Below, piece after piece: positions 21,115-35,188 of a stretch of 64,000 nt of DNA. The notes beneath the pieces were generated by a model. It was not told the origin of the DNA and made no database searches. It saw nothing but the letters and a program-made list of their open reading frames with translations. The stretch covers positions 310,001-374,000 of the forward strand of contig JABCZH010000003.1 in the NCBI GenBank assembly GCA_013289795.1. Reading direction: 5' to 3'. The DNA comes from Acidobacteriota bacterium. GTDB taxonomy: Bacteria; Acidobacteriota; Terriglobia; Terriglobales; Acidobacteriaceae. The position numbers were made by a program, and so were the translations under genes. Position 1 is the stretch's first letter. Each line of letters begins with the position of its first letter.

Positions 21115-21124
21115 ATCTGGGTGG

Positions 21125-21162
21125 CCCACTCTAACGTCGCGCTTTTGCGACGTTAGGGTGGG
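21125..21162. repeat. 16-bp hairpin 'CTAACGTCG' element
   Basis: CCCACtCTAACGTCGC pairs with GCGACGTTAGgGTGGG around 'gctttt', with only one wobble pair. It starts 10 nt after the beta-propeller stop. An inverted copy is at 32067-32103. It may end transcription or be a REP-like element. The rest of 21163-21459 holds a CGGACA-ctct-TGTCCG hairpin (21181-21196), a 'cttgtcattccga...gagggatct' repeat (about 21217-21250) and no gene. Confidence 0.7.
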
Positions 21163-21459
21163 GAAGTTGGCTATCTGGGGCGGACACTCTTGTCCGTTAA
21201 CGCCCTAGAGCACTTGTCATTCCGAACGCACTCCAACACCGAGGGATCTCCCTTTTATTCTCAAAATCTTCCCACATCGGGAATCTCACCCGACATTCCC
21301 ATTATTTCCCGACCTCTCCCGCAACCTTGTCAAGCCCCCTAAATCACCAATTTCCTCGCAAACTCCTGATTCCGCCACGAATATAAACTTCCAAACCGTG
21401 TCTCACTTACCCCTTCAACTTGCTATTCTGAACTTATAGAGACAAATTCAAGAAAGTCC

Positions 21460-24296: not shown

Positions 24297-26027
<1,731 letters not shown>

Positions 26028-26034
26028 CTAATCG

Positions 26035-26097
26035 GCTTCTAGCTTTTAGCTGTTAGCTCCTAGCGAACGGCCAACGAACGAGCGACCAACGACGTGA
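26035..26097. repeat. Periodic repeats inside the groES-groEL gap
   Basis: 'cttctagcttttagctgttagctcctagc' followed by 'gaacggccaacgaacgagcgaccaacgacg', both 8-11-nt periodic. Related stretches lie at 24266-24295 and 31583-31666. The site is unusual because it splits an operon. Confidence 0.6.
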
Positions 26098-26098
26098 C

Positions 26099-26425
26099 TT
26101 ACCGTCGCGAGCCGGCGGTTTCTTTCTTGGCTGCGCCGCTGAGGATGCCGAGTACTTCCTCTTCGCGCATGATGATGTAGTCTTCGCCATCCAGCTTGAT
26201 CTCTGTGCCGGAGTACTTGCCGAACAGGATGCGGTCGCCCTCTTTCACATCGAGCGGACGAACCTTGCCGTCCTCGTTAACTTTGCCTTTGCCGGCGGAG
26301 ATGACTTCGCCCTCCTGCGGCTTGTCTTTCGCGGAGTCTGGAATAATTATGCCTCCGCGGGTGGTTTCGGATTCTTCCACACGGCGGACTAAGATGCGGT
26401 CGTGGAGTGGGGTAAACTTGGCCAT
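26099..26425 (-). CDS. groES: Co-chaperonin GroES
   Basis: 108 residues. '[18 protein letters not shown]' opens the beta-barrel, the mobile loop is '[20 protein letters not shown]' and the core continues '[23 protein letters not shown]'. The C-terminus is extended by a short basic tail ('[12 protein letters not shown]'). The ATG at 26425 gives the family N-terminus. A longer frame to 26500 is not used, since CIRCE and the promoter lie further upstream and 'MAKFTPL' is the usual beginning. First gene of groES-groEL. Confidence 0.97.
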
Positions 26426-26512
26426 GGTTATTGCTCCTTTCGTTCTGTTCTTTTTGAGTTTGGGTTTGATTGCCAGGTCATACGGGCTCGCCAACGGCAT
26501 GAAGGACTATTG

Positions 26513-26539
26513 TTAGCACTCATTGTTGGCGAGTGCTAA
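26513..26539 (-). promoter_or_regulatory. CIRCE operator (HrcA binding site)
   Basis: TTAGCACTC, 9-nt spacer, GAGTGCTAA: a perfect match to the CIRCE inverted repeat, 88 nt upstream of groES. HrcA binds this site and represses class I heat-shock operons until heat stress. No hrcA is in the window. Confidence 0.96.
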
Positions 26540-26569
26540 TCATAGCAGATGTGATGGTCGGGTTGTCAA
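26539..26569 (-). promoter_or_regulatory. Sigma70-type promoter of groES-groEL
   Basis: On the minus strand TTGACA (26569-26564) and TATGAT (26544-26539) are separated by 19 nt, with TG one base before the -10 (extended -10), which may offset the long spacer. CIRCE begins at the last base of the -10, so HrcA would block the start site directly. Confidence 0.8.
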
Positions 26570-26666
26570 GGGGAGTCGCGGGACGGAAAAACTGATCAAG
26601 CACAGGGGGCACGGAGGGTCGCAGAGGAAAGCGTACCACCGGTTGACTGTTAATGATGGTAACTCT

Positions 26667-27917
26667 ATGAATATAAAACATAAACTGCTTATCTTTCTCA
26701 TGAGTACTGGACTGGCGGTTGTGGCCCAAGTGACCCCGGCTGACCTAGTTTTGAGGGGTGGGACGGTCTATCCGGCGCCGGGAGTCAGGGCGATCCACGA
26801 TGCCGTGGTGGTGATTCGTGGCGGGAAGATTGCCGTCATAGGAAAGAGCAAGAACGTGCGGGTTCCGCGCTCGGCGACGGTTTTGGACTGCTCGGGCAAG
26901 GTGATTGTGGCGGGATTCTGGAACAGCCATGTCCACTTCACTGAAGATATTTGGAGCGACCCACAGGGCACTGCTGTCAAGGCCGGGAACAGTTGCGTCA
27001 CTTGCCTGGAAGTAGTCCACATGCGCGACATGCTCACGCGCTGGGGATTTACTACCGTGTGGGACCTGGGGTCGGATCCGCAGAAGACTCTGAGCTTCCA
27101 GCACATGGTCGATTCCAACGTGATTCCTGGGCCGAAGATTCTGATGGCGGGAAGCATTTTCCCCAAGGAGGGGCATCCGGTTTATCTGCCCGCTGAGGTG
27201 CGATTGCCCGAGGCGGCGACTCCGCAGGAAGCCGAGAAGATGGCGCGGGGCTACATGGACATGAGGCTCGATGGGATTAAGCTGTTCACCGGCGCGTACA
27301 TGGGGCGTGACAAGCCGGTCATCAATATGGACACGGCAATCGTGAAAGCTGCGGTGGACGTGGCTCACGCAGAGGGCAAACCGGTGTTCACGCATCCGCA
27401 GAACCATGTGGGCGTGGACAATGCGCTGGCTGGAGGCGTGGATATTCTGGCGCACACCATTCCGACGGAGGGCAGTTTCACGGCGGATGAGCTGGCGCAG
27501 ATGAAACGACAGCATACGGCGCTGATCCCGACGCTGACGCTTTGGACTACAGTGACGTCGAATGTGGACGCGCAGAAGCAGTTGGTGCAGGCGGGAGTGG
27601 ACCAGGTGAAAGCGTATGCGTCGCAGGGAGGAACGATTCTGTTTGGCACCGACGTGGGATTCATCACTAAGTACGACACCGCTGAAGAGCTCGAATACAT
27701 GGGACGGGCGCTGACTTGGAGTGAGATTCTGGCGTCGCTTACGACTAACCCTGCGGCGTTCTTTAAAGCTTCAAGCAAGGGCCGGGTAGAAAAAGATATG
27801 GACGCGGATTTGGTGGTGCTGGAGGGTGATCCGGCGGTGGATGTTAGGAATTTTGCGAAGGTGGCTTGGACTGTGCGGGCAGGGAAGGTGATTTGGGCGG
27901 CGGTGGGGAAGAAGTAG
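26667..27917 (+). CDS. Exported amidohydrolase (imidazolonepropionase-like)
   Basis: 416 residues of the metal-dependent amidohydrolase superfamily with an N-terminal signal peptide ('LLIFLMSTGLAVVAQ'). 'DLVLRGGTVYPAPGVRAI' starts the small beta domain. The metal pair His-x-His is in 'WNSHVHFTED' (about 88-90), a likely Lys ligand in 'DGIKLFTG', His in 'PVFTHPQNH' and 'ILAHTIP', and Asp in 'FGTDVGF'. The C-terminal 'DADLVVLEGDP' closes the fold. The substrate is unknown; relatives act on cyclic amides and dipeptides. ATG 26667 starts the signal peptide. The frame upstream crosses the CIRCE region and is not coding. Divergent from groES. Confidence 0.88.
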   Translation: MNIKHKLLIFLMSTGLAVVAQVTPADLVLRGGTVYPAPGVRAIHDAVVVIRGGKIAVIGKSKNVRVPRSATVLDCSGKVIVAGFWNSHVHFTEDIWSDPQGTAVKAGNSCVTCLEVVHMRDMLTRWGFTTVWDLGSDPQKTLSFQHMVDSNVIPGPKILMAGSIFPKEGHPVYLPAEVRLPEAATPQEAEKMARGYMDMRLDGIKLFTGAYMGRDKPVINMDTAIVKAAVDVAHAEGKPVFTHPQNHVGVDNALAGGVDILAHTIPTEGSFTADELAQMKRQHTALIPTLTLWTTVTSNVDAQKQLVQAGVDQVKAYASQGGTILFGTDVGFITKYDTAEELEYMGRALTWSEILASLTTNPAAFFKASSKGRVEKDMDADLVVLEGDPAVDVRNFAKVAWTVRAGKVIWAAVGKK

Positions 27918-27980
27918 AGAGGCTCATAACTTAGGTTGGTTCTGAGACAGCGCGAAGGTGACCGCTGGACTACAGGATGT

Positions 27981-28565
27981 CTATACCTTCTTGAGCGCAT
28001 CGAATTTTTTCAACAATGATGCATACTGGTACGCTGCTTTTAGCAGCTCCTTTGCAAACTCGACTGCCAATTCTACTTCCTCCTTTCCAACTTGTTGGTA
28101 TTCTTGTGATTCAATGTGTGCAGCGTCGTTACCCAGCAGTCTGAGATTGTCTGCACCCTCCAGCAATTCCTTTGGAAGGACGATGTTTTTTCCTAAGGCC
28201 TGGATCCTTTCCCTAAGGTTGCTTCCGGTCGCTCCTTTGTCGCGGCAAAGCTCCTCAAGGGTCTTGCGGACCATGATGGCCGAGGCCACAAAGCACTGCT
28301 GGGAGTGGCATTCAATCGCCTCCTCGAAGGCCTTTCTAACTGCCGCTGGGATGTTCGTAGAGTCGAAGTCAAGCTGTTCGGGTGGGTAGGAGATTGCCAC
28401 TCGACCCCCTTCCATAACTACAAAAATGTGCTTTCGGCATGCGGGATTAGGGCACCGCCGCTGTCCGAAGACGACCTGTCCGGCCGTGCCGGCGATCGGC
28501 GTCACGAAATCGGGGACACTTAGCGCATCCAGGGTCCCATACTGTTTGCATGCTGGACACCTCAT
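27981..28565 (-). CDS. Zinc-ribbon DUF4145 protein
   Basis: 194 residues. The N-terminus has a zinc ribbon: Cys3-x2-Cys6 ('MRCPACKQ') and a second knuckle 'RRCPNPACRKHIF'. The C-terminal two-thirds are helical with 'AIECHSQQCFVASAIMVRKTLEELC', 'LRERIQALGK' and 'LRLLGNDAAHIE', which is the DUF4145 (HEPN-like) pattern with the conserved N-D-x-x-H. These proteins often accompany defence or restriction genes, but no such partner is adjacent here. It lies alone, convergent with the amidohydrolase. Confidence 0.85.
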   Translation of the reverse strand: MRCPACKQYGTLDALSVPDFVTPIAGTAGQVVFGQRRCPNPACRKHIFVVMEGGRVAISYPPEQLDFDSTNIPAAVRKAFEEAIECHSQQCFVASAIMVRKTLEELCRDKGATGSNLRERIQALGKNIVLPKELLEGADNLRLLGNDAAHIESQEYQQVGKEEVELAVEFAKELLKAAYQYASLLKKFDALKKV

Positions 28566-28804
28566 GCTAGCAGGGTTGTTTGAGCCCGCTGATTGTCCCG
28601 CGTCGGATTCTGAATTTGGAAAGACATTGGTCTATAGCTTAGATGGTACGACATTTTGGCCCTGACGCGTCTTTCCGCGCCCATGAACCGTCATTTTTCT
28701 TGTTGCACCCAGCAGGCCGAGGGGGGCCTACGTGGTTCGTGGTGGTTCATACATTCGCGGGCGAGGGCGCCCGCGCCACACGCGATAGTTTGGTCCGTCG
28801 GCAA

Positions 28805-28847
28805 TGCCCGCCTCTTGCGCAAAGGGCGCGCAAGAAGCGGGGCACCC
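28805..28847. repeat. AAAGG-loop hairpin, copy 1
   Basis: 'CCGCcTCTTGCGC-aaaggGC-GCGCAAGAaGCGG' followed by GGGGCACCC. A 41-nt stretch matches 29401-29441 with a single change. The spacer 28566-29045 has no gene. It also holds 'gcgggcgagggcgcccgcgcc' (about 28757-28780), inverted relative to the element at 53919-53940, and a lone TTGACA near 28961. Confidence 0.7.
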
Positions 28848-29045
28848 ACGCTTGGGTTGGCCAACCCCGCCCGTCCGCCTCCACATCACCTTACGATGCG
28901 GGTGAGTCTGAGGACTGGTGAACTTTCGACTCCAGACTGCTAAGAATGACACACTGTGTCGTTGACAAGGGTTCCGACAGATGAGAAGTTGAGTTTGTAA
29001 GACGCCCTTCCCCCTCCCATTTCTTCCTGTGAACGGAGATATATC

Positions 29046-29387
29046 ATGAACAAACCACTTTTGCTCTTGCTGGCTGTGCTGGTTGCGCCCTTCGCCGCAG
29101 CCCAGACGTCCGCTAGTTTGTCTTCAACCTACCAGCCCGCCGATCACGCGCAACCTGCGAGCCACCAGTCGCTACAAATCGAGCGCGCTTTGGTTTCAGA
29201 CAGCGTGGTCACGGCAGCGGGCGAGATGCCGCTCTCGGATGTGCCATTGCCGGCGGTGCACGAAGAACCATTGGGCGATGTGGCTCGACGGTATCGTGGG
29301 ATGTCGAGAGATGCGCAGGCGTCGGCGGCCCAACCCGTTCTCAAGCGCAGCACCGGGGCTTTTCCTGGGTGGTGGTTGGCTGACTAA
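29046..29387 (+). CDS. Small exported hypothetical protein
   Basis: 113 residues with a clear signal peptide ('LLLLLAVLVAPFAAAQ', cleavage about residue 20). The mature part is low-complexity and disordered, with 'SDVPLPAVHEEPLGDVARRYRGM' as the only ordered-looking segment. 'PLGDVARxxR' recurs in short exported proteins of Acidobacteriota as far as I recall. GGAG lies 8 nt before the ATG. It is flanked on both sides by copies of the AAAGG-loop hairpin. The function is unknown. Confidence 0.65.
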   Translation: MNKPLLLLLAVLVAPFAAAQTSASLSSTYQPADHAQPASHQSLQIERALVSDSVVTAAGEMPLSDVPLPAVHEEPLGDVARRYRGMSRDAQASAAQPVLKRSTGAFPGWWLAD

Positions 29388-29400
29388 GGCGGCGAGAGCG

Positions 29401-29441
29401 CCCGCCTCTTGCGCAAAGGGCGCACAAGAAGCGGGGCACCC
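29401..29441. repeat. AAAGG-loop hairpin, copy 2
   Basis: Near-identical copy of 28807-28847 (one substitution in the 3' arm). It lies 13 nt after the small exported protein and before the convergent TIGR03118 gene, where it could act as a shared terminator. Confidence 0.7.
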
Positions 29442-29474
29442 GCGGCTGGTATTCGCACCCGGCAGCGAGGAAGT

Positions 29475-30488
29475 TTATTTTGGTGACACGTAGCCGAACG
29501 CGCCTTCAAGATTGTTGTTTGGGCCGGCTGTCCAGAACAGTTGGTTGGTTTGTCCGTTTGCGGGGGATCCGCCGCCAAACATAATTCCCCAAAGCTGCGG
29601 GATTTTGATGGCTTTGCCGTTCGCGCCGGTGACCGTTCCCACGAACTTGCCGGTCGAGGGATCGAACCCGTTAATGGTTCCGGCGTTGGTGTTGTTCGAA
29701 ACCAGCAGCGTGTTGCTGAGCGCGCCAAAGTTGCTGGGCGCCATGGCCACGCCCCAGGGCTGATTCAGAGGCGCTCCGCTGATCAGGCGTTTCACGAATG
29801 TACCCTGCTCGGTAAAGATGTCCACCGCTCCGTTGGGACCGCCGTTGGCAGCCACGAAGGTTACATAAAGCTGGCCAGCGATGTCTTGGATTCCAAACGG
29901 AACTGCGCCCTTGGGCAACGTGGTATCGGTGAAGGAGCCCACGAGTTGGAAGGCTGAGTTGTACATGTCGATCTTGTTGTTGGCGGTGTCGGCGGCGTAG
30001 ATCATGGTGTTGGCCGCGTTGATGGCAAGTCCGGTGTAAACCGCTCGGAAGTTGGTCACGGCGATCAACGAAGCGCCCGGTGAGAAGGATGACCAGCCTT
30101 GAATGGTGCCGTCGAGAGTGCAAAACATGAATTCGGATGGCCAGGTGTCGATCTTGAAATTCCGGCTAGAGTTGTAAACGATTCCTGTGGGTGAACCTTG
30201 TCCGCCGTTGGCGCCGGGGACGACGACCTGGAGGTTTTGCGGATTTCCGCTGCCGTCGTAGAGGGTTGACCAGCCGCTGCCCTCGTCACTGAGCCAGAAG
30301 GGTGCGCCCGGCGCGTAGGTCAAGCCCCAGCCGTTCACCAGGAGCGGGTCAACGTGTCCGTGGCCCGTCACGTCCGAGTCCAGCACGGTAAGGTTGTATT
30401 GAGCGAGAGCTGAAGCGGGTGCGAGAGCGATTACCAGGGCGAGCACCGCGGCAGAGAGGATGAGATTGCTGCTGTACCATCGTTGCAT
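29475..30488 (-). CDS. TIGR03118 family secreted protein
   Basis: 337 residues with a signal peptide ('LALVIALAPASALAQ', cleavage about residue 29). The mature domain begins 'YNLTVLDSDVTGHGHVDPLL' followed by 'NGWGLTYAPGAPFWLSDEGSG', the signature of the TIGR03118 family, then NHL/beta-propeller-like blades ('GLAINAANTMIYAADTANN', 'LISGAPLNQPWGVAMAP'). It ends 'LFWTAGPNNNLEGAFGYV'. The family is widespread in Acidobacteriota and Planctomycetes and has no proven role. No sorting signal is evident. It is transcribed alone, probably from the promoter at 30599-30629. Confidence 0.88.
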   Translation of the reverse strand: MQRWYSSNLILSAAVLALVIALAPASALAQYNLTVLDSDVTGHGHVDPLLVNGWGLTYAPGAPFWLSDEGSGWSTLYDGSGNPQNLQVVVPGANGGQGSPTGIVYNSSRNFKIDTWPSEFMFCTLDGTIQGWSSFSPGASLIAVTNFRAVYTGLAINAANTMIYAADTANNKIDMYNSAFQLVGSFTDTTLPKGAVPFGIQDIAGQLYVTFVAANGGPNGAVDIFTEQGTFVKRLISGAPLNQPWGVAMAPSNFGALSNTLLVSNNTNAGTINGFDPSTGKFVGTVTGANGKAIKIPQLWGIMFGGGSPANGQTNQLFWTAGPNNNLEGAFGYVSPK

Positions 30489-30598
30489 TTGAATCTCCTT
30501 GACAGTTGACGGGAGGTTTTGATCGAGGTGGATGGCAGACAGTTCGGCAGGTGGAAATTGCCAATGCCTGGATCTGTCGAGTCCAGCAAGTATAGCGT

Positions 30599-30629
30599 GG
30601 CCGGTATGCAGTTTGTCAGGGGAAGGTTA
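30599..30629 (-). promoter_or_regulatory. Possible promoter of the TIGR03118 gene
   Basis: Minus strand CTGACA (30629-30624), 19-nt spacer, TATACT (30604-30599), about 110 nt before the start codon. The spacer is longer than ideal. Confidence 0.3.
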
Positions 30630-30664
30630 TTTGTTTGTAAAATCGGTGTCTCTGGAATCTGCAA

Positions 30665-31066
30665 TTGGCAGATGCTGGTGATGAGGTCGCATTGGAATCC
30701 AAGAAACGAATCCTTCCGCGCAAGGTCCGTTGGCTGGCAGTGGTCACGGGATGCGTTGTGGGAATCGCACTCCTGAGTTTTAAGTGGGCAGCGGTTTGTG
30801 GGATTGTTCTGACTGTGGCGGCGGTAGTGCAGCCGTGGATGCCGCGGACGGGGAGGTGGGTGCTTTCAGTGGTTGCCCCGTTGCTGGGGGTGTGGATAGT
30901 TCCGATGGGCGGCTTGTTTCTGCTGGGAGCAGTTAAGGGCGAGACCTTAGGGGTCGACTTTTTCAGCCGGGGGCTGGCGTTGGCGTGGATGCTGTCGCCG
31001 ATATTGCTGGTTTGGTGCGTTGCGGCGCTTGTGGTCGAGGCCAGAAAAGAGAGGCTCGGTCGCTAA
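30665..31066 (+). CDS. Small multi-TM membrane protein
   Basis: 133 residues. A charged N-terminal stretch (about 1-20) is followed by hydrophobic segments at about 24-40, 42-56, 66-88 and 104-125, and a short basic tail ('VVEARKERLGR'). No known motif. The indicated start is TTG; a second TTG 10 codons in could also serve, so the N-terminus is uncertain. Divergent from the TIGR03118 gene. The frame is clean and hydrophobicity is well organised, which supports a real gene. Confidence 0.6.
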   Translation: MADAGDEVALESKKRILPRKVRWLAVVTGCVVGIALLSFKWAAVCGIVLTVAAVVQPWMPRTGRWVLSVVAPLLGVWIVPMGGLFLLGAVKGETLGVDFFSRGLALAWMLSPILLVWCVAALVVEARKERLGR

Positions 31067-31094
31067 GGATGGCTGACATGGTGCAGCAGAGGAG

Positions 31095-31135
31095 CCTCCC
31101 ACGTCTCGCAAAGGCGGCGAGACGTGGGGCACCCG
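31095..31135. repeat. AAAGG-loop hairpin, copy 3 with a different stem
   Basis: CCCACGTCTCGC (31098-31109) pairs perfectly with GCGAGACGTGGG (31117-31128) around 'aaaggcg', and GGGGCACCC overlaps its 3' side. Loop and flank match copies 1 and 2 while the 12-bp stem sequence is different. Confidence 0.7.
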
Positions 31136-31182
31136 CATCCAGTTCCCGTGCTGGGCAGCACACTTTGTTAGAATTGGTCGCG

Positions 31183-31581
31183 ATGAGGAAACTGGGATTC
31201 TTGTTGTTACTCGGGCTGGTTAGTGTTCTCGCCTTTGCGGGAAAGCACGACTACGCCGGGCCGGAGAGCAACGTAAACTTCGTGGTGATCAGAGACTATA
31301 ACGGCAAGCCGGTGCGCAATGCGAGTGTGGTGTTGCATCTGGTCAATGAAAAAGGCAAACAGGACCGCGGCGGGCTGGAGCTGAAGACCGATGCCGATGG
31401 CAAAGCGAATTACGAGGGCGTCCCTTATGGCAAGCTGCGGGTGCAAGTGCTGATGCCGGGGTTCCAGACGTACGGTGGCGATTACGATGTCAACCAGGTG
31501 CGCATGGAGATCACTATTCGGATGAAACGGCCGGAGGAGCAGTATTCGACTTATGGGCCGAATGGGGAAGAGAAAAAATAA
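31183..31581 (+). CDS. Secreted carboxypeptidase-regulatory-like (Cna-B-type) domain protein
   Basis: 132 residues with a signal peptide ('FLLLLGLVSVLAFAG', cleavage about residue 20). A single Ig-like beta-sandwich follows, with 'VIRDYNGKPVRNASVVLHLV', 'LELKTDADGKANYEGVPYG' and 'LRVQVLMPGFQTYGG', the pattern of carboxypeptidase-D regulatory domains used for protein or glycan contacts on the cell surface. ATG 31183 starts the signal peptide; TAGAAT (31169-31174) lies 8 nt before it and there is no SD, so the message may be leaderless. Confidence 0.8.
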   Translation: MRKLGFLLLLGLVSVLAFAGKHDYAGPESNVNFVVIRDYNGKPVRNASVVLHLVNEKGKQDRGGLELKTDADGKANYEGVPYGKLRVQVLMPGFQTYGGDYDVNQVRMEITIRMKRPEEQYSTYGPNGEEKK

Positions 31582-31582
31582 A

Positions 31583-31666
31583 CCGTCGTTGGTCGTCGGT
31601 CGTTGGCCTTTAACATCCTGATGGCGGCGGCGGTTGCTAACGACCAACTAACAAAGACCAAGGACC
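31583..31666. repeat. Periodic intergenic repeat (cgttggtcgtcgg / gaccaa type)
   Basis: 'gtcgttggtcgtcggtcgttgg' on the left and its complement-like 'cgaccaactaacaaagaccaaggacc' on the right, separated by about 25 nt. They could pair loosely. Related text lies in the groES-groEL gap. Confidence 0.6.
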
Positions 31667-31678
31667 ATGGACAGATTT

Positions 31679-32062
31679 ATGGACTATCTGCTGAAGACTG
31701 AGCCATCGGAATATGCTTTCGCTGATCTGCAGCGCGACAGGGAGACGGTGTGGGATGGTGTGTCGAATCCGGTGGCGTTGAAGAACCTGCGGGGGATGAA
31801 GGCGGGCGAGCGCTTGGTGATCTATGAGACGGGAGATCATAAGAGCGCGGTCGGGACGGCGACGGTGGTTTCGGTGGACGCGGCAGATCCGAAGAACCCG
31901 CGAGTGAAGATCAAAGCCGGCAAGGGACTGGGCACGCCGGTGACGCTGGCGGAAGTGAAAGCCAACAAACTGTTCGCGGACTCGCCACTCGTACGGCAGG
32001 GAAGACTAAGCGTGGTGCCGTTGAATGCGGCGCAGTATAAGTTCTTAACGGGGAGTGATTGA
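31679..32062 (+). CDS. EVE domain protein
   Basis: 127 residues, a single EVE domain (PUA-like fold), a fold that binds modified bases or RNA. 'MDYLLKTEPSEYAFADL' is the usual N-terminus, then 'WDGVSNPVALKNLRGMKAGE' and 'YETGDHKSAVGTATVVS', with the conserved aromatic/Asn pocket residues present. ATG 31679 fits the family better than the ATG 4 codons upstream, which lies in a repeat. EVE proteins often sit near defence genes, but none is adjacent. Its stop is followed after 4 nt by a TAACG hairpin. Confidence 0.88.
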   Translation: MDYLLKTEPSEYAFADLQRDRETVWDGVSNPVALKNLRGMKAGERLVIYETGDHKSAVGTATVVSVDAADPKNPRVKIKAGKGLGTPVTLAEVKANKLFADSPLVRQGRLSVVPLNAAQYKFLTGSD

Positions 32063-32066
32063 AATC

Positions 32067-32103
32067 CCCATCCTAACGTCGAAAAGCACGACGTTAGGGT
32101 GGG
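32067..32103. repeat. TAACG hairpin, inverted copy
   Basis: CCCAtCCTAACGTCG pairs with CGACGTTAGGgTGGG around 'aaaagca', 15 bp with one wobble. The loop is the reverse complement of the loop at 21141-21146, so this copy is in the opposite orientation. It lies between the convergent EVE and FKBP genes. Confidence 0.7.
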
Positions 32104-32117
32104 CCGCTCGCGTCCCG

Positions 32118-32963
32118 CTATTTCTTGTCTTCTTTCTTTTCTTCCGGCTTCTTGTCTTCTGGCTTGTCGGCAGCCTTTTCTGGGGCTTTGATCGACAGCA
32201 ATTCAACTTCGAAAATCAAAGTGGCGTTGGGGGCGATGTCGGTGCCCGCGCCGCGCTCGCCGTAGGCAAGATCAGAGGGAATGACTAGCTGCCATTTGGA
32301 TCCGGTGGGCATGAGTTGCAGGGCCTCGGTCCAACCCTTGATGACGCCAGTGACGGCGAAAGTGGCGGGCTGGCTGCGTTTGTAGGAGCTGTCAAATTCG
32401 GTGCCGTTGATCAGCGTACCGCGATAGTTGACGGTGACAGTGTCGGTTGCGGCGGGTTTGGGTCCTGTGCCGGGGGTTAGGATCTTGTACTGAAGGCCAC
32501 TGGGCAGGGTGACGACGCCGTCTTTATTTTTGTTAGCTGCCAGGAAAGTGGCGCCCTCGGCTTTGTTAGATTCTCCCAGTTGTTTCGTCCGCTCGCGCTG
32601 CTGTTGTTGGAATTCGGCTTGCACAGCCATCAGTACGGCGCGGGCCTCGTCCTCGGTGATGAGGGTCTTGCTGCCCGCCATGCTGTCTTTTAACCCACGA
32701 GCGATGAGGTCCACGTTTACGGTCATGCCCTGCTTTTTCAGGTTCGTGCCCAGGTTCGTGCCCACGTTCATTCCCAAGGCATAGCTGAATTTGTCTTTCT
32801 GGAGGGCGAGGGACGGAGTGGTAGAAGTCTTGGCCGCCGGGGCCTGCGCTTTCTTGGCTGCGGGAGCGGCGGGGTTGGTGACGTCCGGAGTCTGGGCGAC
32901 GGCATTGCCCACGAAGAGCAGGCCTGTGAGTATGAGTGCTGAGAAGATCGAAGGTCTAGGCAT
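32118..32963 (-). CDS. Exported FKBP-type peptidyl-prolyl isomerase (Mip-like)
   Basis: 281 residues with a signal peptide (about 1-23, 'FVGNAVAQ'). An Ala/Pro linker leads to an N-terminal dimerisation helix region ('KFSYALGMNVGTNLGTNLKK', 'ARAVLMAVQAEFQQQQRER') as in Mip/FkpA. The FKBP domain (about 165-260) has 'VTVNYRGTLINGTEFDSSY', 'VIKGWTEALQLMPTGSKW' and 'LAYGERGAGTDIAPNATL', with the hydrophobic active-site residues in place. The tail is charged ('EDKKPEEKKEDKK'). Acts on proline bonds of periplasmic or surface proteins. ATG 32963 begins the signal peptide; the longer frame lacks it. Confidence 0.93.
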   Translation of the reverse strand: MPRPSIFSALILTGLLFVGNAVAQTPDVTNPAAPAAKKAQAPAAKTSTTPSLALQKDKFSYALGMNVGTNLGTNLKKQGMTVNVDLIARGLKDSMAGSKTLITEDEARAVLMAVQAEFQQQQRERTKQLGESNKAEGATFLAANKNKDGVVTLPSGLQYKILTPGTGPKPAATDTVTVNYRGTLINGTEFDSSYKRSQPATFAVTGVIKGWTEALQLMPTGSKWQLVIPSDLAYGERGAGTDIAPNATLIFEVELLSIKAPEKAADKPEDKKPEEKKEDKK

Positions 32964-33004
32964 CCGTATATTGTTACATCGACTGGCCGGGGCGGCAAAT
33001 CGGG

Positions 33005-33080
33005 GCGGCGCAGATGCCACGGATTGGGGCGGATCTTCAGGGATCTGGCGATCTGTTGTCCGGGCCGCAGATTTCCGCGG
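33005..33080. repeat. Periodic intergenic repeat (cagatt / cggatct type)
   Basis: 'gcagatgccacggattggggcggatcttcagggatct' and 'gccgcagatttccgcggatcttcgctg' are degenerate periodic units ahead of the FKBP gene. Related stretches lie at 33543-33622, 35209-35293 and 52640-52696. Confidence 0.6.
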
Positions 33081-33189
33081 ATCTTCGCTGTGCTCTTCAC
33101 TGGTCCTCTCTGCTCTGGGGGCCGCTGGACGAAGGTAATTTGCCCACGAAGCGGCGACTCGCTAGGGTCGTAATAGTTACTTCATAGCG

Positions 33190-33540
33190 ATGAGCACCCA
33201 ACCCAGCGCCGTGCACCCGCGATTCTCCGTCGCTATTACGGTGATGCTGCGCGAGGCGACGGGCGACGCTATTCTGGCGCAACTGAAGAATATCAGCCTG
33301 AGTGGATGCTACCTGGAGACTCCGCGAGAAATTAAAGAAGACGCGCGCGTGCGGGTGGTGTTGCAAGCGGCCGATCTTCAGGCTGAAGTTTGGGGAGTGG
33401 TGCGACGCCGGGATGGCACCGGCGTGGGCATACGCTTCACCAACGGCGCTACCGTGGAAGACTGGAAACGTCTGGAAGCGCTGATTGACGACTTGCAGGC
33501 CTCGGTGCCGGCCCGGGCCGCGGCGGCGTCACAGCCTTAG
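33190..33540 (+). CDS. PilZ domain protein
   Basis: 116 residues, one PilZ-like barrel: 'HPRFSVAITVMLREATGD', 'LKNISLSGCYLETPREI' (the NxSxxG-like motif, here N-I-S-L-S-G-C) and 'GVVRRRDGTGVGIRFTNG'. The usual RxxxR c-di-GMP motif near the N-terminus is reduced to a single Arg ('HPRF'), so nucleotide binding is doubtful. The Ala-rich tail is non-conserved. A c-di-GMP receptor or a degenerate adaptor are both possible; a diguanylate cyclase is encoded 7 kb away. Confidence 0.8.
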   Translation: MSTQPSAVHPRFSVAITVMLREATGDAILAQLKNISLSGCYLETPREIKEDARVRVVLQAADLQAEVWGVVRRRDGTGVGIRFTNGATVEDWKRLEALIDDLQASVPARAAAASQP

Positions 33541-33542
33541 CG

Positions 33543-33622
33543 GCAGCCGCAGATTTCGCTGATCTTTGCTGATCAAGAACAACCCCAAAAAGCGGCCACG
33601 GATTTACACGGATTCTCACGGA
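33543..33622. repeat. Periodic intergenic repeats (gcagatttcgctgat and gccacggatttacacggatt types)
   Basis: 'gccgcagatttcgctgatctttgctgat' then 'gcggccacggatttacacgg', with units of about 10-12 nt. It fills the gap between the convergent PilZ and acyl-CoA ligase genes. Confidence 0.7.
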
Positions 33623-35188
33623 TTAAAGCAATTGCTTTAGTTCGCGGCGAAGGATTTTGCCGGATGCGGTCTTTGGAATCGTTTCCACGAAGCGCACGGC
33701 GCGCGGCTGCTTGTAGTGCGTGAGGCGGTCGGCGACGAATCCGCAGAGTTCTTCTTTCATCTTTTCCGAAGCGACGGAACCGTTGCGCAGGACGACGAAG
33801 GCGACGGGAATCTCGCCGGAAGCGGCGTCTGGGCAGCCCACAACTCCGCAATCCCGAACCCCAGGATGTTCGAGCAGCACGCTCTCGACTTCCGCCGGGG
33901 CCACGGGAAAGCCCTTGTACTTGATCATTTCTTTTCTTCGATCCACCACGAAGAAAAAGTCCTGAGTATCGCGGGTGACGACGTCCCCTGACCAGAACCA
34001 GCCGTCGCGCAGAGCCGCTGCCGTTGCCTGCGGCTCCTTCCAGTATCCCAACATGAATTGCGGTCCGCGCATAACCAACTCGCCGGGCTGACCGGCGGCA
34101 AGCTCAGTGCCCAGTTCGTCCACGACACGGCACTCGGTTGCGGCCAGCGGCTGGCCGATGGATTCGGGGCGATAGAGTTGAGGATCGAGATAGCCGATGT
34201 GGGTGACCGGAGAAGCTTCGGTCATGCCGTATCCCTGGCAGACGAGAATGCCGGTGAGGGAAGTGAAACGGCGCGCCAGCTCCGGAGCCAGGGGCGCTGC
34301 GCCGGATTTGACCCAGCGTACACGATGGTTCTTGGGGAACTCGCCGGCTTCGGCGGCCTGACACATGGCGAGGAGCGCGGGCGGAACCGCCGGTATCATG
34401 GTGATATTTTCCTGCTCCAGTAAGCCGGGCAGTTGCTGGGGATGAAAGCGCGGAACCAGCACCACAGTTGCGCCCAGTACGAGGGCCGGATTCATGATCA
34501 CGTTGAGGCCGTAGATGTGGAAGAGCGGCAGAAAGCACAGCACGACGTCATTGCCACACAGGTCGGTGGCATTGGGTGCAATGAACTGAAACACGTTGGC
34601 CACCAGATTGTGATGCGAGAGCATCACGCCTTTGGGCAGACCGGTGGTGCCGCTGGAATAGGGAAGTGCGGCCAGGGTGTGGTCGGAAGGCTGGCCGGGA
34701 GCGGGGAAGCTGGCGGCGCTGGATCGCAGTAGATTGGCGAAAGGCTCGGCTCCGGCGGCGGGCTGGCGAGTGGTGTACACACGGCGGAGGTTGGGCAGAC
34801 CGCTGAGATTGACGCCATTGAGGCTGGAGCCGTCGCTGATCAGAAAGACAGCGCCGGAGTTTTCCAGTTGATAGCGGGCTTCCCGTTCGCGGTAGGTTGG
34901 ATTCAGCATCGTGGGTATGGCTCCGGCGAGCGTGGCGGCGTGGTAGGAGGCGCAGAATTCCCAGCAATTGCAAAGAAAGATGGCGACGACTTCTCCGGGC
35001 TTGAGGCCAGCGGCGATGAATCCGCGTGCCAGGGCCTCGACCATCTCGCCGTACTCGGCATAGGAGAAACGGCGGTTGCAGGAAGTGTCGACGATGGCGG
35101 TTTTTGAGGGGAAACGGCGGCAACTCTCGAGCACGAGGTCGTGGACGAAACGGCCGTGCGGATCGGCGTAAAGCTGGGTGCGGAGCAT
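33623..35188 (-). CDS. AMP-dependent acyl-CoA ligase (4-coumarate/long-chain type)
   Basis: 521 residues of the ANL adenylating family; activates a carboxylate with ATP to the AMP-ester, then the CoA thioester. Motifs in order: P-loop A3 'YSSGTTGLPKGV', 'GYGMTEASPVTHIG' (A5), 'GWFWSGDVV' (A7), 'DRRKEMIKYKGFPVAPAEVE' (A8) and 'PKTASGKILRRELK' with the catalytic Lys (A10). Order and spacing match 4-coumarate-CoA ligase-like enzymes; the true substrate (aryl or fatty acid) is unclear. ATG 35188 starts the family-like N-terminus. The open frame further upstream crosses glutaredoxin and repeats and is rejected. Confidence 0.9.
   Translation of the reverse strand: MLRTQLYADPHGRFVHDLVLESCRRFPSKTAIVDTSCNRRFSYAEYGEMVEALARGFIAAGLKPGEVVAIFLCNCWEFCASYHAATLAGAIPTMLNPTYREREARYQLENSGAVFLISDGSSLNGVNLSGLPNLRRVYTTRQPAAGAEPFANLLRSSAASFPAPGQPSDHTLAALPYSSGTTGLPKGVMLSHHNLVANVFQFIAPNATDLCGNDVVLCFLPLFHIYGLNVIMNPALVLGATVVLVPRFHPQQLPGLLEQENITMIPAVPPALLAMCQAAEAGEFPKNHRVRWVKSGAAPLAPELARRFTSLTGILVCQGYGMTEASPVTHIGYLDPQLYRPESIGQPLAATECRVVDELGTELAAGQPGELVMRGPQFMLGYWKEPQATAAALRDGWFWSGDVVTRDTQDFFFVVDRRKEMIKYKGFPVAPAEVESVLLEHPGVRDCGVVGCPDAASGEIPVAFVVLRNGSVASEKMKEELCGFVADRLTHYKQPRAVRFVETIPKTASGKILRRELKQLL

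Follow-up and report, generated by a model that had tools for sequence, protein, structure and literature searches.

What are three short hairpins that share a loop and a 3' flank, differ in their stems and lie close together on a contig of an Acidobacteriota bacterium? An earlier note, made from the letters alone, had seen in them selection on the fold, as in a REP or an RNA element. We analyzed the whole stretch of DNA (the window, 64,000 nucleotides) together with its source genome and related genomes. We conclude, with a probability of about 0.9, that the hairpins are REP elements of one RAYT (TnpA-REP, Y1/HUH) lineage of an Acidobacteriota family, that is, non-autonomous DNA repeats which the RAYT would recognize and move.

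The hairpins of the window and their copies in the genome

Read on the plus strand, the repeat unit consists of a CCC/GGG foot, a stem and an A-rich loop, followed by the tag GCACCC. Copy 1 occupies positions 28807..28841 with its tag at 28842..28847, copy 2 lies at 29401..29435 with its tag at 29436..29441, and copy 3 at 31098..31128 with its tag at 31129..31134. All three are on one common strand, at spacings of 594 and 1697 nt, and the mismatch bias described below points to the minus strand, where the tag reads 5'-GGGTGC, as the one that folds. The pattern AAAGGN{8,25}GGGGCACCC gave three matches in the window, all on the plus strand (28821-28847, 29415-29441 and 31110-31134), compared with a mean of 0.01 in 100 dinucleotide shuffles of the window, none of which contained three. 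The set is beyond chance, and the description of three copies with a common loop and 3' flank was borne out. Copies 1 and 2, with the stem CCCGCCTCTTGCGC, are nearly identical, as had been claimed; the single base that differs creates a C.A mismatch in the stem of copy 2, which the opposite strand shows as a G.T wobble. Copy 3 does have its own stem, CCCACGTCTC, with 12 perfect pairs. Some hairpins that surround the RAYT at locus L240 have this stem as well, and hairpins at the loci L160 and L181 have a stem, CCCAGGTCTC, that is near to it. When plus-strand RNA was folded with flanks, copy 3 lay 4.2 sd below the shuffled sequences, and copies 1 and 2 just 1.8 and 0.3 sd. A possible weak fourth copy was seen at window positions 21119-21166 on the minus strand (19.1 bits, E 0.012), with the tag form GGGCCACCC.

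The genome-wide covariance-model search that the earlier note had proposed revealed further copies. Model R1, built from 11 same-length copies and used to score 150 of 4061 first-look candidates in the 4.67 Mb genome, returned 41 matches at E<=0.1; relatives had up to 84. Such numbers of short palindromes per genome are typical of REPs, and so is a mainly extragenic placement: by a crude codon-model gene caller, 39 of the 41 copies lie outside called genes (28 in tandem, 6 in convergent and 4 in divergent gaps, 1 at the end of a stretch) and 2 are genic. The outer stem nonamers of the 41 copies gave 22 keys, two of them slicing artefacts (about 20 different). The three window copies do not form the two close inverted REPs of a REPIN or BIME. 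Elsewhere in the genome, four near-identical copies follow one another in a single orientation about 500-740 nt apart (L207, G000:C6:137503-139304), and at L016:1501-1522 (G000:C3:67821-67842) two tags stand 13 nt apart past a long perfect stem (CCGTCCAAG..CTTGGACGG).

Genome-wide, the pattern used in the window matched 5 times compared with 1 for its backwards control, and GGGGCACCC alone 41 times compared with 22. The latter excess, only twofold, would suit a chance resemblance of unrelated GC-rich hairpins. We consider such an origin next to impossible, since it is refuted by the window shuffles and, as described below, by the covariation, the arm-swap result, the family-wide spread, the RAYT flanks and the matching stems.

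The tag, the fold and the strand that folds

A set of 327 elements was drawn from all fetched loci and the window. Each element had to have GGG[GC]CACC, a foot of CCC and a net pairing score no lower than 8; as RAYT-flanking copies are numerous in the set and its sources overlap, it is not a random sample. It held 258 distinct hairpins with 52 distinct outer nonamers. The loop, first described as a fixed AAAGG, has this sequence in the three window copies, while across the family it is A-rich and not strictly AAAGG. The sixth base of the tag, the next letter on which no selection was made, was C in 282 of the 327 elements. Beyond the tag conservation dropped to 0.22 bits, and on the far side of the hairpin it was 0.21 bits; the element has sharp edges. 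On one strand the conserved tag GGGTGC stands 5' of the foot, which is the layout of REPs in the available text of PMC6006769 and PMC8266576, and the guide-like tetranucleotide is GTGC in 285 and GTGG in 42 of the 327.

In the alignment of the 11 model copies 95.5% of the cells pair and 8 of the 12 pairs vary on both sides, with a covariation score of 0.559; shuffling lowered the score to 0.172, and with slid partners it never exceeded 0.121. Since these copies had been picked partly for folding, we ran an arm-swap test on a pairing-blind set of 102 hairpins, for which CCC, a central AAA and the tag were the sole anchors. Arms of the same hairpin gave 70.6% Watson-Crick pairs and swapped arms 37.5% (sd 2.0, maximum of 200 swaps 45.4). 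The proposed selection on the fold was thus confirmed: the stems vary, and the tag, the three-G foot and the A-rich loop are constant.

If neither strand were preferred for folding, the frequencies of C.A and G.T mismatches should be the same. On the strand as given, the stems of the 327 elements had 153 C.A and 11 G.T mismatches, a ratio that includes mismatches shared by descent and is not a tally of independent events; the pairing-blind set had 74 and 19, and swapped arms 16% and 11%. Because the excess C.A mismatches are G.T wobbles on the complement, we infer that the complement, 5'-GGGTGC-CCCR.., is the folding strand, and it is this strand, with the tag 5' of the foot, that appears to have been selected to fold.

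The folding strand bears on whether the hairpins could be RNA elements, either terminators or mRNA 3'-end stabilizers under selection at the level of the transcript. Stable stems with compensatory change would suit such a role, and so would a terminator-like 5-pair site over the copy 2 tag on the minus strand and the position of two window copies shortly past ORF stops. The reported distances of 13-29 nt do fit the ORFs 29046-29387 and 30665-31066; neither ORF, however, was called a gene by the crude codon-model caller, and stop-codon proximity in the window is a weak argument. The mismatch asymmetry favours the tag strand, which is opposite to the strand that had been read, and the tandem copies show no strand preference, since a count by hand put 11 of the 28 on the same strand as the genes beside them. 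Terminator-like sites numbered 5 compared with 3.5 in shuffled sequence (sd 2.1), which is no excess. Of these sites, that over the copy 2 tag is the only one to coincide with a hairpin, and none uses the family stems; with a number so near that of the shuffles, the terminator reading was dropped. Rfam, run over window positions 26000-34000, gave nothing at the hairpins and one sub-threshold match elsewhere. The placement and orientation of the hairpins around RAYT genes and a gain inside a coding sequence, both described below, also argue against selection on transcripts, which we regard as very improbable as the origin of the family; a secondary RNA role for some copies is possible. Of the suggested 'REP/RNA element' it is accordingly the REP part that holds, by the 41 copies and the RAYT association, and the transcript-end part that fails on the terminator count, the gene-strand count and the folding strand.

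Hairpins around one lineage of RAYT genes

The biochemistry of how RAYTs recognize and spread REPs comes from a few GTAG systems. The source genome has 6 Y1_Tnp genes. When the flanks of 74 Y1_Tnp genes from this genome and its relatives were aligned with each other, with no tag presupposed (one further locus had too short a flank), the hairpins were found to bracket one RAYT lineage, class A, and other lineages were accompanied by other repeats. Strict detection placed hairpins at 24 of 30 class-A members, leaving 6 with none, compared with 4 of 44 other RAYTs (p 4e-10); this comparison is favoured by six regions (L159-L164) that were picked for nearness to model matches, and class-A membership was read from a single unrooted tree, where branches of other RAYT lineages emerge within the group. 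Reversed sequence gave 3 matches in this detection, compared with 88 in the real sequence.

The second set, without the model-match bias, consisted of the top 80 among 551 relatives identified by protein alone; their titles were all Acidobacteria or taxa within, and several of the loci coincide with places already in the first set. Hairpins were present on both flanks at 62 of these loci, on one flank at 14 and on none at 4, so that at least one hairpin flanked the RAYT gene, as REPs do, at 76 of the 80. Near the gene there were 194 matches per 72 kb, some of them nested alternatives of one place, compared with 34 per 144 kb further out. The tag pointed outward in 166 of the 194 matches, namely 82 on the minus strand upstream and 84 on the plus strand downstream; 14 upstream plus and 14 downstream minus matches had the opposite orientation. 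Of the 56 loci with a minus hairpin upstream and a plus hairpin downstream, 46 had an identical outer nonamer on the two flanks, compared with a mean of 5.6 and a maximum of 13 when the flank pairing was shuffled. At some loci the downstream hairpin overlaps the RAYT stop codon.

Other repeats were seen near RAYT genes. Next to a class-A RAYT, at L160:1337-1445, short units of GGGGCACCC follow one another in tandem, which looks like an amplification of the tag end. Another RAYT lineage, with proteins of about 147 residues (L132-L155), is accompanied by long repeats of its own, in many of which the core resembles CCCAGCGCTT..GCGCTGGGCTA. At L066 a RAYT of another class lies between inverted GGGGACAG..CTGTCCCC palindromes (L066:1116-1155 and 1944-1983) that fit the published motif GGGGWSAS; a copy of our family stands beside this RAYT, which was rejected as its partner on account of its own inverted GGGGACAG repeats and its class.

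Class-A RAYTs have about 180-200 residues and the motifs MPxGLxRF, HFxTFSCYRR, HVH and YxHRNPV. The first member scored 113.1 bits against NCBIfam REP_Tyr_transpos (cut-off 80), which was matched by all 14 aligned class-A proteins at E<=0.001; together with a Y1_Tnp score of 43.4 bits (cut-off 23) this places the protein in the RAYT family. Among solved structures TnpArep 4er8 comes nearest (E 1.2e-17), and its residues W94, Q95, E100 and H101 contact GTAG according to the text available of PMC6006769. W94 and Q95 are matched in class A; unlike in the E. coli RAYT, the position of E100 holds an invariant D, and that of H101 an F in 9 of the 14 proteins.

Class-A units in the source genome lie at C5:60439 (L067), at C7:4 (L069/L290, cut by the contig end) and at C2:36886 (L294, a relic with a stop), and the sole further fragment-level match is at C1:102553 (E 0.017). 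Class 2 TnpA genes have a low copy number in the accessible text of PMC6006769. The genome's own class-A RAYTs go with the stem CCCAGGTTAGCG, which is absent from all 41 genome copies found with model R1, a model that is poor at long-loop hairpins. Because their stems are unlike CCCAGGTTAGCG, the window copies are probably either orphans left behind by earlier RAYT sublineages or hairpins that a RAYT tolerating other stems has moved.

Flanking pairs with matching stems and outward tags, and the decayed RAYT with a downstream hairpin at C2:36886, would also be expected if the elements served solely as terminal repeats of a RAYT unit, the scattered copies being what is left of decayed whole units. 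A genome, however, can hold up to 84 model matches and at most 8 class-A matches, C1:102553 is the only further RAYT fragment, most copies have no detectable RAYT remnant, and the integrase-gene copy described below is shorter than 100 nt and has no RAYT. We therefore consider such an origin of the scattered copies unlikely and prefer to read the hairpins as REPs in their own right.

As REPs of class A, the hairpins are most likely tiny mobile passengers recognized as folded single-stranded DNA. The RAYT would most likely recognize the fold of single-stranded 5'-GGGTGC-hairpin-3' (the minus strand in the window), made up of the tag next to the three-G-C foot, the loop, T-rich on the folding strand, and a stem that varies with the RAYT sublineage, and would bind and move the hairpins. 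The tag would guide the cut; by the IS200/REP guide scheme, as given in the available part of PMC8266576, GTGC would select GC or GA, not CT.

Spread, mobility and relation to known systems

Within the GTDB family 53 of 60 genomes match the covariance model at E<=0.001. In a phylum-wide draw 21 of 199 genomes matched at E<=1e-4, 20 of them in Acidobacteriaceae and one, with a single match, outside (the 158 genomes not listed may include further members of the family). As far as sampled, the RAYT lineage is centred on one acidobacterial family. Genomes with a full class-A RAYT (34) had a median of 23 elements, those with fragments (9) a median of 14 and those without (17) a median of 1. Exceptions to this trend are G034 (genus g35), with 63 elements, and G075 (70% complete), with 25, neither of which has a class-A match at E<=1e-20; G034 has no Y1_Tnp match at all. 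Genome G023 has a class-A RAYT and no R1 match.

One genus has an integrase-family gene that, in 3 of 10 species, contains a hairpin and some sequence flanking it (L312, L315 and L316). The hairpin is present in G172, G241 and G233, in all of which the reading frame is open through it, and absent from G181, G225, G129, G034, G141, G190 and G271. The gene product, taken for a XerC/D-like recombinase, scored 21.6 bits against Phage_integrase over 90 residues, below the cut-off of 27.1. The in-frame copy in 3 of the 10 species shows a gain within the genus. Empty sites between the close pair G172/G241 were found in none of the 7 aligned pairings (9 tried), and the loci L298 and L300 are orthologous to each other; because the element is present in both members of each pair, no recent movement is seen at these sites. 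A second locus compared in ten genomes is an intergenic repeat cluster found mainly in the nearest species.

We put forward tentatively, as somewhat less than an even chance, that the family represents a third REP tag superfamily. In it a constant handle (GGGTGC, foot and loop) would be combined with a stem address that drifts with each RAYT sublineage; both flanking hairpins would change stem together, address and transposase would diversify as a pair, and genomes would collect the orphan hairpins of lost RAYTs. Under a single tag the family supplies 258 distinct hairpins and dozens of transposases, each of the latter with a flanking pair of its own, and what a RAYT reads (tag, loop or stem) and how new recognition pairs originate become open to direct in vitro test. 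Many intergenic hairpins of a common soil phylum also gain an identity.

The general kind of system is already known, and it is the recognition tag that differs. In the text, without figures, of the open-access literature we found no description of a GGGTGC-tagged REP/RAYT family, and the text seen of PMC12306157, in which Granulicella aggregans was analyzed, names no such family. The GTAG REPs with RAYT (REPtrons) of E. coli, Stenotrophomonas and Pseudomonas, as far as the texts of PMC3733652, PMC6006769 and PMC8266576 describe them, are likewise many extragenic palindromes with a 5' tetranucleotide, frequent stem mismatches, RAYT-specific stem families and a RAYT related to TnpArep 4er8. The acidobacterial family differs in the tag GGGTGC with tetranucleotide GTGC (minority GTGG), in the many stem types under one tag and loop per genome, and in flanking hairpins that are mostly inverted with the tag outward. 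We place it among the RAYT-linked REPs, apart from the GTAG REPs, because 285 of the 327 copies, having GTGC, do not fit GTAG or its variants GYAG, GYRG, GTRG and GTMG; the 42 with GTGG would fit.

The REPs with the tag CGTC are also tagged short palindromes, but the family does not carry that tag, and in the part of PMC3733652 available CGTC-tagged REPs have no transposase partner. The same text describes TIRYT genes and TIRtrons of Koribacter, Terriglobus, Acidobacterium and Granulicella that share the motif GGGGWSAS; as in the present family, RAYT-like genes of Acidobacteria are flanked on either side by inverted repeats, some of which recur in the genome. Unlike theirs, our sequence GGGGCACC does not fit GGGGWSAS, which fits the other RAYT class seen at L066. 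The family, set apart here by the published motif and not by repeat sequences, may overlap with the TIRtrons, Koribacter ORF1552 above all. In IS200/IS605, as outlined in the available text of PMC8266576, a Y1/HUH transposase acts on single-stranded hairpins with 5' guide tetranucleotides; class-A RAYTs resemble REP_Tyr_transpos and TnpArep more than they do IS200 models and, unlike IS200/IS605, go together with many solo hairpins.
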